Shown here: positions 6,004 through 19,414 of the stretch, one piece after another
Layout of the letters: each line of letters begins with the position of its first letter
Numbering within the stretch: position 1 is the stretch's first letter
Virus record (IMG/VR): IMGVR_UViG_3300034283_002057
Location: 1 to 50,115 of that record
Reading direction: 5' to 3' (one strand)
DNA: 50,115 nt
DNA from: a virus
Program-made: the position numbers and the translations under genes
Notes under the pieces: model-generated
What the model was told of the DNA's origin: nothing
Database searches by the model: none
The model's input: the letters and a program-made list of their open reading frames with translations, nothing else

Positions 6004-6024
6004 TATGTGAGAAAGACTCACATA
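6004..6024 (-). other. hairpin overlapping the gp23 stop codon
   Basis: A perfect 8-bp inverted repeat TATGTGAG/CTCACATA with a 5-base loop covers the last codons and TGA stop of gp23. It sits only 6 bases from the terminator hairpin at 5979-5997. There is no T-tract directly after it, so it is more likely an mRNA-stabilising or terminator-assisting structure than a terminator on its own. Confidence 0.7.
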
Positions 6025-7433
6025 AGGTTAGCAACCTTAACTCTTCTGTAGTATACGTTAGAGTTGGTAGCAATGTTGTCTGGAGCGGTTGGGGTAGTAG
6101 CACCCTTCGCAAATGGATTCGCGACGATTCCATAACGAGTCTTGAATCCGATTTTTGGTTGGAAGGTTTGCTCACCAACAGCACGTACCATCTGGAGAGG
6201 TACATATGGGCAGTAGAAGAGACCAGCATCATAAGGAGATGCACCCTTATAACCGACAACGTAGAACTGGTTAGCAGCAACGTTTGCCGAATATGGGTCG
6301 ATGTAGACTCTATACTTACCTTGGAGAACACCAGCGAAGGTGTTACCAGTGTCATCAACGTTCAGGTTAGCGTTGAGTGCAGGGGTGTAATCAAGAACAC
6401 CTGCCATGGTGAGTGCCGAAGCAACGTCAGCAGAGCAGAGGATCATGTTACCCTTCCCTCTACGAGTTTGCTGTGCAATTGCGTTTGCATCGCGCTCGAT
6501 TTGGAAGATGAGACCCTTGAACTTCTCAACCGACCAACGACCGTTGGAGTCAACGTCGAGGTCAAAAGTACCAGCGGTAGCGGTGTTAACCTGAGCACCA
6601 GGAACAGCAACCTTATAAACGGTACGGATGATTTCTCTGTTGATTTCAGCGAGAATCTCAGTGCTGAGGATGTTAGCAAGCTCAGCCTCTGCATTCAGAC
6701 CATGAATTGCCTTCAGGTCTTGTGCGAGTTCGAGTGAGTACTCAGCTTTCAGTGCGCGTGACTTAGCAGTAACGGTGAGTTTCTCGATTGAGAAAGCCAT
6801 CTCGTTAAAGTAGTTGGTATCTCCGTCGCCAAGTGCTTCAGAATTGCCAGTAGTCATACCTTCGCCAACGTTGTACTGGTTTGCACCAGTAGCAGCGTTG
6901 GTGGATTGATCAGTTGGGCTAAGAATTGAAGGATTGCTTCCACCTTGAGCGGTTGTACCAAGACCAACGGCTCCGTCGATGAAACCTGCAGATAGACTGC
7001 GACGGTTATTCTGACCGGAGAATGCCGAATCTACTTCGTTGTAGAAAGTCTCAGCACCACTCTGATTCTGATAACGTGAACGCATCGCGAAGATGAGTCC
7101 AGTAGGACCATTCATTGGTTGAACGCCACACAGATCATAAGCGATCAGGTTAGGCATTGAGCGTCTGATCAGGGAGATCAGAACGGGGTCGAAACCAGCA
7201 ACAGGAGAACCTGTGCCGCCAGCGGCGCTACCACCAAAACCACCAGTACCGGCAGAGTTGGTTGGGGAAGCTTCGTTAAGGAAAGAACGCTCTTCGCGGA
7301 GTTCTCTCTCTTGGTTTTCTAGCAGGATTGCGGTTACAGATCTACGATGTGAATCTTTGATTTGATCCATTCCTTGGTAATCAAGGATTGGAGCCCACTT
7401 CTCCTGCAGATATTCGGTGTTGTACATCTGCAT
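6018..7433 (-). CDS. 23: gp23-like major capsid protein
   Basis: Precursor of the hexameric capsid shell protein, HK97 fold. It has 471 residues; T4 gp23 is 521. The N-terminal 54 residues are charged and helical, and a gp21 protease site L-N-E/A is visible after E54 (FLNEASPTN), the counterpart of the T4 cleavage at residue 65. A Gly/Ala/Ser-rich linker follows and then the conserved core with P-N-L-I-A-Y-D-L-C-G-V-Q-P-M and the I-N-x-E-I-I-R-T spine helix. There is no separate gp24 vertex gene here, as expected for cyanophages. AGAGGT before the ATG is a good ribosome site. A TATAAATC late box lies 31 bases upstream and strong hairpins lie downstream. Confidence 0.97.
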   Translation of the reverse strand: MQMYNTEYLQEKWAPILDYQGMDQIKDSHRRSVTAILLENQERELREERSFLNEASPTNSAGTGGFGGSAAGGTGSPVAGFDPVLISLIRRSMPNLIAYDLCGVQPMNGPTGLIFAMRSRYQNQSGAETFYNEVDSAFSGQNNRRSLSAGFIDGAVGLGTTAQGGSNPSILSPTDQSTNAATGANQYNVGEGMTTGNSEALGDGDTNYFNEMAFSIEKLTVTAKSRALKAEYSLELAQDLKAIHGLNAEAELANILSTEILAEINREIIRTVYKVAVPGAQVNTATAGTFDLDVDSNGRWSVEKFKGLIFQIERDANAIAQQTRRGKGNMILCSADVASALTMAGVLDYTPALNANLNVDDTGNTFAGVLQGKYRVYIDPYSANVAANQFYVVGYKGASPYDAGLFYCPYVPLQMVRAVGEQTFQPKIGFKTRYGIVANPFAKGATTPTAPDNIATNSNVYYRRVKVANLM

Positions 7434-8724: not shown

Positions 8725-9375
8725 TTAAAGATTTGCTAAGAAATCTTGGAACAGTTGAACTTTATGTTCATCTAATCTTTTTTGATCAACTAAAGTGTTG
8801 ATTCTTCTTTGTGTATTATTTGCAAGTTGTTCACGAAGGATTCCTCCTTCCCAAACCCACTCCTTACCTTCCATAATACCTTGAACAAAAGCATCAGGAG
8901 CAGAAGGATCAGCAACAATATCGGCAGCAGTTGCTAGCATAAAATCTTCACCAACAATTTTATGACCTTCGTTGGTCATTTTTAATGAACCAACACCACG
9001 AGAAGAAACACCAAGCATAACTCCTTCACCAATAAGAGATTTTGCAATCTTACCCATTGGAGTTTCAAGAAGTTGTGCCTTGCCAATGAAATTATTACCA
9101 TCTCTATAAAGTTCACAGATTTTATGTGAAACTCTATCAAGATTTACGGTTGGTCCATCTGGATGACCAAGTTCTCCAAGAGCACGACCTTTCTGAACAA
9201 AATTTTCATTATAGCGATTTACCTCTCTTTCCATGATAGAAAGAGGATACATTCTGCCGTTTCTATTAATTTGTTCTGCCTGCAAGAAAATACCTTTAAT
9301 GTAAGATTTTTTGGCAGACCCTTTACCTTCGGTAATAAATTCTACTTTTGAAATTTCTTCTGTGATGAGTTTCAT
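8725..9375 (-). CDS. 21: gp21-like prohead maturation protease
   Basis: Serine protease that cleaves scaffold, capsid and internal proteins inside the prohead after I/L-x-E. It has 216 residues, close to T4 (212). Conserved segments: F-L-Q-A-E-Q-I-N-R-N-G-R-M-Y-P, ALGELGHP with the catalytic His (H71), GVSSRGVGS with the catalytic Ser (S124) and D-P-S-A-P-D-A-F. The N-terminus contains I-T-E/G (F-I-T-E-G), a likely self-cleavage site. It is followed by gp22 and gp23 in T4 order. Confidence 0.94.
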   Translation of the reverse strand: MKLITEEISKVEFITEGKGSAKKSYIKGIFLQAEQINRNGRMYPLSIMEREVNRYNENFVQKGRALGELGHPDGPTVNLDRVSHKICELYRDGNNFIGKAQLLETPMGKIAKSLIGEGVMLGVSSRGVGSLKMTNEGHKIVGEDFMLATAADIVADPSAPDAFVQGIMEGKEWVWEGGILREQLANNTQRRINTLVDQKRLDEHKVQLFQDFLANL

Positions 9376-14659: not shown

Positions 14660-16360
14660 TTATCTATAATCCCACATATAAGACCGATCACCATATTCAT
14701 CAACATTCCATACTTCTAAAGCATTATTTTCATTTTTTGATCCGGCAAATATCCACCGATCTCCAGTTTCTTCATCAATAGTAACACTAAAATCATCCAA
14801 CCCATCTGCAATAAATCCAAATGGTGACATATCTTGTTCTATCTGATTTTTCTGCTCCTCATAAATTCTTTTACGAACATCGTTGTTCGTCATTTCTTTA
14901 AAATAATCTTGAGCAACTAACCAAGAAAAAATGACCAAACACATTGCCAAATCATCATTACATCCTTCTTCTGCCTCAAATGAATTCTTTCTTTGAATAA
15001 AAGTAGTTAGTTCTGAAATAATATCATAATCTTTTACAAGTAACTTATCATCTTCAATTAATGTCCTTAAATTGGAACATCCCAATTTTTTAACTGCAGC
15101 AGTCATACGAACTCCAAGTTGGGATTTCTTACCACTAAATCCAGAACCCACAATCTGACCAGCACGACCTCTCATCGCACACATTAAAACATTATCATAT
15201 TCCAAATCAAAGTGTAAGATACTCGCTACTTGATCACCAATATCATTTACTTCAATCAATAACCAAGAATCATTATACCCCTTTGCCACTTCATGTATAA
15301 TACTTGGAAATAGCATTGGTTTAATTTCATTATTTTTATATTTTGCTACAATCCTGTATGGGAAATTGGTAATATCAAAAACAATAAATGCAGAGTAATC
15401 ATTGCCAATACCACGAGCAACGTCTACTGTGATTAGATAATTATTTTCCTCTTTCGGATGCTCATAAACATCTAACCCAGCATTTCTTTTAAGTGGATCA
15501 TCATAGACAAGAGTTCTTAATTTTGCTGCATTAATTAAAGTATCGACAGATCCTAAGAATTCGCATTCAAACTCGACTTTGAATTGTTGCTCACTAGTGT
15601 TTGCAATCGTCTGCTCTTTCCATTTAGCGTCTCTACCAGGCACCTCAGACCAATGGACATCTGTGGGCACATATTCGTTCTTGCCCCTCTCAGAGTCGTG
15701 CCACATACGGTAGAAGTGATTCATACCGCGAGGTGTGGAAACAATAATTACCTTTGTGCTTTGACCAGAAGAAATAGTAGGATAAACAGAGGCAAAGAAG
15801 TCATCAGCAATGTGATTTGGGATGAATGCGAATTCGTCCAAAAAGATGACATTATAGGATCCGCCTCGGACAGCAGATGAAGAAGTAGAGTTTGATGAAA
15901 TTTTTGATCCATTTTCCAATTCAAGTGATCCTTTGTTCCAAGAGATAATACCCTGTTGCATCCACTTGGGTAGGTTCTCATAGGCGAGTTGTAATCTCCC
16001 AAGCAGATCCCTTGCAGTGGATGCTTTGTTCGCTAAGATGGCAATATTGACATTATCGTTAAAAACAGCGTAGTGGAGCAGGTAGGATACGCAGGTGGTT
16101 GATTTACCAGTCTGTCGTGGCATCTTACAAATGTTAAATCTATTCTCGTGGAAGTTTTTTACAAGTTTCTCTTGAAATGGATACATCTCAAAAGGAACAA
16201 GACCGTGATCCAGAGAAACGATCTTAATATAGTTCTTTGCAAAATATACGGGATCTTCCTTACACTTCAAGAACTCAATAATTTGTTCTTCTGTGAATTG
16301 TATTTGTGTATTTGCTCTTTTAAGTAGAGGATTACCAAGATAGATGTCATTATTTGGCAT
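14660..16360 (-). CDS. 17: gp17-like large terminase subunit
   Basis: DNA packaging motor and nuclease. It has 566 residues; T4 gp17 is 610. ATPase motifs: Walker A RQTGKST (82-88), Walker B VIFLDE (171-176, catalytic E176) and the coupling motif STPRG (208-212). The RNase H-like nuclease domain has acidic residues at D313 (TVDVARG), E370/D373 (IEVNDIGD) and D469-D470 (CNDDLA). All catalytic residues appear intact. Unlike T4, gp16 is not adjacent: three unknown genes separate the two terminase subunits. Confidence 0.97.
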   Translation of the reverse strand: MPNNDIYLGNPLLKRANTQIQFTEEQIIEFLKCKEDPVYFAKNYIKIVSLDHGLVPFEMYPFQEKLVKNFHENRFNICKMPRQTGKSTTCVSYLLHYAVFNDNVNIAILANKASTARDLLGRLQLAYENLPKWMQQGIISWNKGSLELENGSKISSNSTSSSAVRGGSYNVIFLDEFAFIPNHIADDFFASVYPTISSGQSTKVIIVSTPRGMNHFYRMWHDSERGKNEYVPTDVHWSEVPGRDAKWKEQTIANTSEQQFKVEFECEFLGSVDTLINAAKLRTLVYDDPLKRNAGLDVYEHPKEENNYLITVDVARGIGNDYSAFIVFDITNFPYRIVAKYKNNEIKPMLFPSIIHEVAKGYNDSWLLIEVNDIGDQVASILHFDLEYDNVLMCAMRGRAGQIVGSGFSGKKSQLGVRMTAAVKKLGCSNLRTLIEDDKLLVKDYDIISELTTFIQRKNSFEAEEGCNDDLAMCLVIFSWLVAQDYFKEMTNNDVRKRIYEEQKNQIEQDMSPFGFIADGLDDFSVTIDEETGDRWIFAGSKNENNALEVWNVDEYGDRSYMWDYR

Positions 16361-17643: not shown

Positions 17644-17952
17644 TTATTCACCCCACGATAATCTTTCTGGTCTATATCTCTCTGCGTTTTTGATTTTTAT
17701 AGAATTAGATTCTATTGGGTATATATTATGAACAATCGCTCCAGGATATTCTCCTTGTAGTTGTTCTGCCAATTCATTTTTTGATAACATTTTTCCTTCA
17801 ACTTCCATACGATATAATCTTCCTTTCCAAACTACATCAGCAAGAAAAGATTCGTTTGCTGTTTCTGGTTGGGAAGAATTCATATAAAGATTGCCGTTAA
17901 AATCACCGGCAATATTGATGCTTTCTGAAATAAACTGTTGAAATGATTTCAT
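17644..17952 (-). CDS. small protein with capsid-targeting-like leader
   Basis: A 102-residue protein. Its first ten residues MKSFQQFISE closely match the T4 internal-protein leader MKTYQEFIAE, which targets proteins into the prohead and is removed by gp21 after I-A-E; here I-S-E is followed by S. The remaining protein is mixed alpha/beta with FLADVVWKGRLYRMEVEGKMLSKNELAEQL and a basic end (NAERYRPERLSWGE). It lies in the packaging/head cluster, one base from the 486-residue protein. I infer an internal head protein; the mature function is unknown. Confidence 0.72.
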   Translation of the reverse strand: MKSFQQFISESINIAGDFNGNLYMNSSQPETANESFLADVVWKGRLYRMEVEGKMLSKNELAEQLQGEYPGAIVHNIYPIESNSIKIKNAERYRPERLSWGE

Positions 17953-17953
17953 T

Positions 17954-19414
17954 TTAGTTACAGTTCCAACGACGAAGTGCTTTATTGATTCTTGAATCTG
18001 GATCTCTTGCGGTTTTTTTAGAAGTGAGTTTATCCTTCATCCCAGACATGCGCCGACAGAATGAAGCACGACGCTTTGCTCTTTTACCTTTTGGTTTCTT
18101 TTCAGTTACAGCAGTTTGGAGTTTTGAACCAGGATTCTCACGACGATATGCTTTAACCGCAGCAGAACTTAAACCATCAGTATTGTCTTTACGATTGACT
18201 TTTTGCCAGTCTTCTGATAATCCAAAATCTGCTCTCCAATTTGAGTATTCTTCTGCTTTCATTTCACCACTATCAACATAATCTGCAGCAGAGTCCAGAT
18301 AATCTGCTGCTTTTGTAATTTTTGATTGTACCCACGCCTCAATATTACCTTCCCCTTTCATTTTTTCGCGAAGTCTCTTCGCAGCAGAAATAATTGTAGA
18401 TAGTTCTGATCTTGCCATAGAGTGTTCATGATCATATGACTCTGGGAAATTTCCAGGATGAACTGTAGCAATATTGTATTTTAATTGATTAGTTGTTAAT
18501 GCTGATGGAGTTGAAAACATATCCCAATATTTTGGTCCATATTTACACTCACTTCTAGTTTCGTCTTTTTGACATTTTGGGCAGTATCTAATCATTTCTT
18601 TTTCTTCATTTGCTTTAACACATCGATTATATGTTTTTCCAAAAAGTGTTTGAGTTCCTTTCTTCTTATACCCTTTCCAACATTTTTGTGCCTCATCAAT
18701 TATAGTTTCTTCAGACTTCGTTCCCCAATTAGCAGCGCCAACTTTACGACACTTGACTAGTGCTCCCGATGCATATGCACTTGGCCAAACATCATATCTT
18801 GATTTTACTTTACTATAGCAGGCATCTTTTTTACCACTACCTTTACCAGGTTTATCTTTTACTTCTTGCAAATTAAATTCTTCTTTCATTTTTTTCTTTG
18901 GTTTATCGGTAGAAACGTAAGTTGGTTTTGCAGCACCTGATTTACGTTGTTGTCCAGGATCTGCTACTTTTTTTCTTCTTGCTGCTGAACGTCTTTGTGC
19001 TGGTGTCATTCTTGCTCTTTTAGAAGATGAAACACACTTTGGAACTCCCTCTCCAGGTTCATCGCTTGCACATGTTCCTCCAGTTACTACATTTACCCAA
19101 CCAGGTTTTCCTTTTTTACCTTTTGATTTGGATTTTCCAAACCATGCACGAAGACCCTCTTCATTAATTTTAACATCCTTGAACTTTTTATGTTCTTTTT
19201 TAGCAGATGCTTCCATTTTTTTCAGGCGAGTATAATAATCTGGAATCTCATCTAAATGTTGAAGAGCAATTTCGATAGCAAGTTTTTGATTCTTGGTATG
19301 TTCGTGTTCAATTGGGGCACCCATATCGAGTTGCTTCTGAATAAACGAAACTTCAAGGCGATGCTTTTTAGCAATCTGTTCCACGGTTTTATATGGTTTC
19401 AATTGCTCATTCAT
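17954..19414 (-). CDS. basic modular protein, possible internal-head polyprotein
   Basis: A 486-residue, strongly basic, Cys-containing protein. Modules: residues 1-68 resemble DUF5661 (VEQIAKKHRLEVSFIQKQL, H-E-H, A-x-x-I-A-L-x-H-L-D-E); 85-170 a Gly/Lys-rich segment with C115 and C127 and a histone-tail-like run (MTPAQRRSAARRKK); 195-232 CYSKVKSRYDVWPSAYASG with C199/C222; 242-268 a C245/C265 unit; 275-292 a Cys cluster C278-P-K-C281 with C290; 331-382 a helical unit (MARSELSTIISAAKRLREKM, IEAWVQSKITKAADYLD); 440-486 a basic tail like DUF6321. Candidate gp21 cuts lie between modules: I-N-E85, L-Q-E184, I-D-E241/A, L-S-E401. Domain names are from memory. It may be packaged with DNA, but that is inference. 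Confidence 0.78.
   Translation of the reverse strand: MNEQLKPYKTVEQIAKKHRLEVSFIQKQLDMGAPIEHEHTKNQKLAIEIALQHLDEIPDYYTRLKKMEASAKKEHKKFKDVKINEEGLRAWFGKSKSKGKKGKPGWVNVVTGGTCASDEPGEGVPKCVSSSKRARMTPAQRRSAARRKKVADPGQQRKSGAAKPTYVSTDKPKKKMKEEFNLQEVKDKPGKGSGKKDACYSKVKSRYDVWPSAYASGALVKCRKVGAANWGTKSEETIIDEAQKCWKGYKKKGTQTLFGKTYNRCVKANEEKEMIRYCPKCQKDETRSECKYGPKYWDMFSTPSALTTNQLKYNIATVHPGNFPESYDHEHSMARSELSTIISAAKRLREKMKGEGNIEAWVQSKITKAADYLDSAADYVDSGEMKAEEYSNWRADFGLSEDWQKVNRKDNTDGLSSAAVKAYRRENPGSKLQTAVTEKKPKGKRAKRRASFCRRMSGMKDKLTSKKTARDPDSRINKALRRWNCN

Follow-up and report, generated by a model that had tools for sequence, protein, structure and literature searches.

The T4 internal proteins of the IPIII type are small basic head proteins that begin with a leader of the form MK-S/T-F/Y-xx-F-I/L-x-E. 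The T4 prohead protease gp21 cleaves after L/I-x-E, and leader residues 8 and 10 control processing. In IPIII, an Asp at leader position 10 allows targeting and inhibits processing (PMC9026906). The T4 core proteins gp22, gp67 and gp68 contain several gp21 cut sites each and are processed in the prohead, but these are scaffold proteins without exchangeable domains, the fragments of which mostly leave the head. Head and ejection proteins of phiKZ and SPN3US are likewise matured after a short Glu motif by gp21-like proteases (gp175/gp245-type), although the proteins and the motif are different and the process chiefly removes propeptides and does not release shuffled modules. Cyanophage proteins of the phrog_727/T4-GC119/DUF6321 family, in contrast, are known only as hypothetical, and no processing, leader logic or role has been proposed for them in the papers that we found. 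One of them, SSM1_115 of phage S-SM1, was labeled T4-GC119, hypothetical protein, in 2010, and the gp16-gp17 interval was described as a hot spot of gene content (PMC3037559). A literature search on DUF6321 and DUF5661 returned no paper, and one on DUF5872 a single passing mention.

The window analyzed here is the whole stretch of a virus record of 50,115 bases, and contains a complete ORF on the minus strand coding for a protein of 486 aa that belongs to this family (phrog_727, E=3.1e-97) and lies in the same gp16-gp17 locus. Matches to the protein come from 504 phage records, most of them of Synechococcus and Prochlorococcus phages, and from many viral contigs; the nearest named phage found is S-SRM01 (77% identity in this protein). 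In the direction of transcription the gene order is TerS, the 486-aa ORF (its ATG located 13 bases past the TerS stop), a leader-bearing protein of 102 aa, a virion structural protein (phrog_1645), TerL and the sheath, with the gp21-type protease and scaffold and then gp23 farther downstream. The original prediction had placed the protein beside a leader-carrying protein and between terminase genes, which the positions of TerS, the leader gene and TerL bear out (Table 1). The same genome encodes an S77-type protease (PF03420), and an expected propeptide site FLNE/A near residue 54 of the gp23-type protein is a reference for this enzyme (slashes indicate the putative cut). The C-terminus of the protease (8725-8766, minus strand) reads KVQLFQDFLANL and that of the S-SZBM1 protease KISAFHEFLQSL; the leader-like F-xx-F-L tail of both could anchor the protease in the core. 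Set beside the window, the S-SRM01 record MW015081 (locus L084, 18830-20551 and 20614-22791) seems, from the order and lengths of its genes, to have the names 'tail sheath protein' and 'terminase large subunit' interchanged.

Table 1. Genes, modules and candidate cleavage sites of the window (486-aa protein residue numbers given for modules and sites).
Feature	Position	Strand	Evidence or remark
486-aa modular protein, phrog_727 family	17954..19414	-	Pfam and PHROG matches; DUF5661 at 12-68, DUF6321 at 409-483
TerS	19428-19850		gene preceding the 486-aa ORF
102-aa leader protein, phrog_1742, MKSFQQFISE/S cut-type site	17644..17952	-	homologous to module H of relatives
TerL	14660-16360		
gp21-type prohead serine protease (Peptidase_S77), presumed cutter	8725..9375	-	PF03420 E=7.9e-40; phrog_207 E=7e-82
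gp23-type major capsid protein	6018..7433	-	assigned by order beside gp22 and gp21
Module A (DUF5661), residues 1-85, ends KINE85	19160..19414	-	Pfam E=1.6e-13; invariant columns in alignment A1
Module B, residues 86-184, two Cys, pI 10.4, ends NLQE184	18863..19159	-	alone with leader MKTFNQFISE in L144
Module C, residues 185-241, two Cys, ends IIDE241	18692..18862	-	position shuffled in relatives; C-terminal in MS-detected S-CREM2 gp160
Module D, residues 242-273 (CWKGYKKKGT...C)	18596..18691	-	position shuffled; joint motif in 94% of non-redundant cases
Modules E+F, residues 274-401, zinc-ribbon-like CPKC and helical stretch, then linker YSNWRADFGLSE401	18212..18595	-	pI 5.7
Module G (DUF6321), residues 402-486, all-helical, pI 11.1	17957..18211	-	predicted fold; stand-alone genes with and without leader
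Candidate Glu E85 (INE/E), weakest of the four	19160..19162	-	motif kept at border in 24/30 aligned relatives
Candidate Glu E184 (LQE/V)	18863..18865	-	E invariant in alignment A1; motif 24/24
Candidate Glu E241 (IDE/A), closest fit to leader sites	18692..18694	-	D junction 94% vs 27% in shuffles
Candidate Glu E401 (LSE/D)	18212..18214	-	motif 30/30; G fold begins one residue later

We divided the protein by conservation into modules A to G and used these to search ORFs from about 400 loci. It had been described beforehand as a series of basic modules, each with a Cys pair or a His-rich or Lys/Arg-rich stretch. Basicity (pI 9.8 for the whole protein) holds for A, B, C, D and G and fails for the acidic segment 274-401, while the Cys pair is present in B, C, D and G, with three Cys in E and none in A, which has an EHEH cluster instead. 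At 486 aa, the protein is also large when set against the T4 internal proteins. E and F look like a single unit, without a site at the F border. Module G is confidently predicted to fold independently from residue 402 on: modeled alone with AlphaFold2 (residues 402-486) it is all-helical with a pLDDT of 94.9 and begins directly after E401. The model of the whole protein had a mean pLDDT of 50.5 and no readable fold, and the four candidate sites all fall in its low-confidence stretches, which is weak evidence. A Foldseek comparison of the module G model with the PDB gave no relative (best E=3.3) and a PDB sequence search with the 486-aa protein no match (best E=1.7), so that no function can be assigned from structure. 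Pfam matches of relatives to IF2_N (E=0.0038), L37ae and L33 were under the cut-off and were set aside, and a likeness of module B to DUF5872, for which there was no profile match, is not claimed here.

The polyprotein-type build of small domains that had been proposed agrees well with what is seen among relatives, in which the modules are shuffled into about 49 arrangements (e.g. ABCDEFG, ABCEFDG, FBCDG, FDBC, BFCDG, EBFCG or GD), some with additional module types at the ends. SSM1_115, encoded at this locus too, contains modules B, C, D and G. Genes with one or a few modules exist as well, many with a leader immediately ahead of the module, such as MKSFKQFLEE (D+G, L133), MKTFIQFIEE (G, L159), MLKFKDFILE (G, L162), MKTFNQFISE (B, L144) and MKKFKQFVDE (D+B, L168). 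SSZBM1_192, a separate S-SZBM1 gene of 165 aa at the same locus, has MKTFKQYITE/AKN, a Cys stretch and module G, whereas the podovirus P-SCSP1k encodes module G as a leaderless gene of 84 aa directly after the capsid gene. Leaderless stand-alone module G was observed in a T7-like cyanophage (L432, 5959-6213) and a Pelagibacter phage (L433, 3938-4222), in contrast to the leader-led and fused forms of T4-like phages. Module H, absent from the 486-aa protein and common in its relatives, is homologous to the neighboring 102-aa protein (hhalign probability 96.3, E=1.7e-9) and, as a separate gene, comes after MKSFQQFISE/S. Independent domains that also occur as separate genes, as would be expected of the parts of a polyprotein, are therefore B, G, D+G and H.

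The I/L-x-E motifs pointed out in the original prediction were all located at module junctions (KINE85/E, NLQE184/V, IIDE241/A and GLSE401/D), i.e. four sites in presumably accessible linkers, as would be expected of a gp21 substrate. Two more are present in the protein, one (LDE56) within the conserved DUF5661 domain and the other (LRE350) in a stretch predicted to be helical, and a total of six exceeds chance expectation only slightly (shuffle mean 2.74, P=0.047). None of 20,000 shuffles placed motifs in all four junction windows, but these windows were set knowing the motif positions, and the independent test of placement is the count at junctions across the family. Among non-redundant cases, hydrophobic-x-E (I, L, M, V or F at P3) was found upstream of B, C, D and G in 86, 89, 94 and 90%, compared with 23-29% in shuffles of the same linkers (maximum 42-51% in 1000). 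Pooling these four joints, the motif was present in 208 of 236 cases where 61.8 would be expected (z=21.7), and of the patterns tried only the fixed WQ of module G ranked higher. The E border had it in 58% (23% in shuffles) and the F border in only 3%. Within chains, all 16 non-redundant instances of module H were preceded by I/V/L-x-E, 14 of them with A or S after the Glu; here the shuffles were also high (mean 8.8 of 16, maximum 14), since hydrophobic residues and Glu abound in the linkers. Hence a conserved cleavage motif between units, the other mark of a polyprotein, is found at B, C, D, G and H but not at the F border. Given that the P3 and P1 codons vary at the joints, the constraint probably acts on the protein and not on a DNA recombination site, which we disfavor as the source of the motif. 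Two features of the joints count against a polyprotein: strict L/I at P3 is found in just 27, 51, 68 and 52% of them at B, C, D and G, and P1' is D, E, A, K, G or V, unlike the leaders, in which it is S in 42 of 63. Judging by the fit to leaders, IDE241/A would be the best candidate, followed by LSE401/D and LQE184/V, with INE85/E last since Glu at P1' appears in 0 of 63 leader sites.

Leaders themselves are found inside the chains. The 486-aa protein has no N-terminal capsid-targeting leader ending in L/I-x-E (its N-terminus is MNEQLKPYKTVEQ), which also speaks against the polyprotein reading, although relatives with few modules do carry one. A search with the leader pattern recovered 30 internal copies (21 distinct), all in the family of the 486-aa protein (e.g. 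KTFGNFMSE/ASAAW, KTFSTFISE/AKKS, KTFNQFVTE/AKKS or KTFQQFMED/WQ), whereas the 11,781 other ORFs (1.12 million aa) contained no copy and shuffled family sequences 0.4 on average, at most 3. Twenty-five of the 30 immediately precede module G, a position at which the 486-aa protein has only a degenerate leader, YSNWRADFGLSE401. The linker YSNWRADFGLSE and KTFGNFMSE would be candidate segments for head packaging. A different protein of the same locus, S-SZBM1_194 (707 aa; L408, 28253-30376), has an internal FITYREFIAE/GN leader ahead of its last module, so fused leaders extend beyond the module set of the 486-aa protein. The word YSWR-x-E-M/L-x(2)-E, which is that of the linker ahead of module G, was also seen in two other virion proteins, at the extreme C-terminus of S-SZBM1_139 (L409, 8989-10362; TYSWRREMGVDE followed by the stop) and near the N-terminus of S-CREM2 gp155 (L407, 492-1013; YSWREELSE/K), and may represent another type of targeting or cleavage peptide.

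Asp occupies position 10 in nine of the 21 distinct internal leaders, so that some joints may be for targeting only. This would suit a chain that is packaged but left uncut as a flexible string of domains, in which hydrophobic-x-E would be a remnant of fused leaders or needed just for core binding; the P1' residues that differ from those of leaders fit as well, and presence in virions needs no cutting. Remnants would be expected to degenerate, yet very different linkers retain the motif at the B, C, D and G joints, and the module H joints keep I/V/L-x-E/A or S in 14 of 16 cases, so we consider an uncut string unlikely. Cutting at one or more joints is rather probable, while cutting at all four sites of the 486-aa protein seems doubtful.

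Published mass spectrometry (MS) places relatives of the protein in virions. In S-CREM2, gp160, composed of modules B, D and C with joints NLEE/KKNCW and EISE/GKKDACY, was detected by 7 peptides (13.1% coverage), gp137, the C-terminal end of which is module G, by 4 peptides (4.1% coverage) and the leader-led gp136 by 8 peptides (PMC10665884, Table 3). The S-SCSM1 relative SSCSM1_29 is annotated as 'virion protein' in a record with, by our count, 48 features so tagged, compared with 45 MS-detected proteins (PMC9602691), so the tagged set nearly but not exactly matches the proteins detected. S-SZBM1 191, 192 and 194 are absent from the virion MS table (PMC9146016). Relatives were therefore detected in virions of S-CREM2 and S-SCSM1 and not of S-SZBM1, in MS of whole virions. 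The S-SZBM1 result weighs against the polyprotein reading, as do the low coverage of the relatives (4-13%) and the possibility of carry-over, about which the authors of the S-SCSM1 study caution (PMC9602691). Carry-over would be needed if this were a non-virion protein, e.g. a packaging or DNA-handling factor in keeping with its place between two terminase genes, with Glu-rich linkers that mimic the motif. However, composition-preserving shuffles fail to yield the motif, capsid-targeting leaders occur internally, and the S-CREM2 virion list lacks TerS and TerL but includes gp136, gp137 and gp160 (PMC10665884), all of which makes such a factor very improbable. The few or absent peptides, together with several sites along the chain that recall the fate of the T4 core proteins, could also point to a scaffold-type protein like gp22, gp67 and gp68, with a role in assembly and not as cargo, and gp21 fragments that mostly leave the head. 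Shuffled and exchangeable module content is unlike a scaffold, though, modules exist as separate genes even in a podovirus with a different assembly type, and relatives bearing B, C and G are still detected in virions; we regard this explanation as very unlikely. Packaging in the head, on the other hand, is highly likely.

The leader predicts packaging in part. Leader-led genes were identified by a position-specific score in S-CREM2 and S-SCSM1 and by eye in S-SZBM1. All four of S-CREM2 (gp6, gp13, gp136 and gp154) were MS-detected, as was one of two in S-SCSM1 (the NMNAT and not SSCSM1_30; a further match inside a longer ORF was discounted), and in S-SZBM1 140 was detected and 191 and 192 were not. 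NMNAT/cytidylyltransferases have leaders in S-SCSM1 (MKSFLQFLKE/A; L086, 38819-40048), S-CREM2 (gp154, MKNFSSFLTE/A; L083, 21609-22469) and S-SZBM1 (140, MRFRQFIIE/A; L409, 10390-11478), and a capsid-targeting leader would account for the packaging of these virion enzymes. S-CREM2 gp6, gp12 and gp14 (L405, 3837-5081, 7704-10313 and 10579-12846), a SAM hydrolase, a Cas9-like endonuclease and an APH-like kinase detected in the virion, have leader-like N-termini (MKDFDSFLEE, RFASFMAE/A at about residue 20 and VKRFDAFLTE, respectively) and are likely injected cargo.

On balance, we favor the view that the 486-aa gene codes for a modular internal-head polyprotein, a fusion of mini-proteins cut at some or all joints by a gp21-type protease. 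Separately folding small proteins, found elsewhere as single and often leader-led genes, would have been joined end to end, with the cleavage motif of the leader (hydrophobic-x-E) retained at the joints and, in some relatives, the entire leader. The chain would be made late and pulled into the prohead core by the leader-like segments, and we infer that the protease then cuts some or all joints during head maturation and that the released mini-proteins (about 30-130 aa, mostly basic and Cys-containing) stay with the DNA and are perhaps injected. It is their charge that suggests that the modules may be DNA-binding peptides. Such a protein would work like the T4 internal-protein system, with which it shares the gp21-type motif and stand-alone relatives of its modules that start with the same leader. 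It differs in having several modules in one chain and leaders or motif at internal positions, and it would be a variant and not a member of that system because it has no N-terminal leader. Several candidate sites, here recognized by their motifs, are what it has in common with gp22, gp67 and gp68.

More tentatively, the family could be a combinatorial cargo cassette of T4-like cyanophages, each phage releasing its own cocktail of injected mini-proteins, which phages would exchange with one another as a repertoire directed against host defences. If the polyprotein reading is true, a very common 'hypothetical protein' of marine T4-like phages (module G is present in 502 phage records) would become a defined head-cargo system, and capsid-targeting leaders could occupy inner positions of a chain. 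There would also be a sequence rule for which cyanophage proteins travel in the virion, one that suggests a reason for the presence of NMNAT-like cytidylyltransferases, SAM hydrolase and other enzymes in cyanophage virions.
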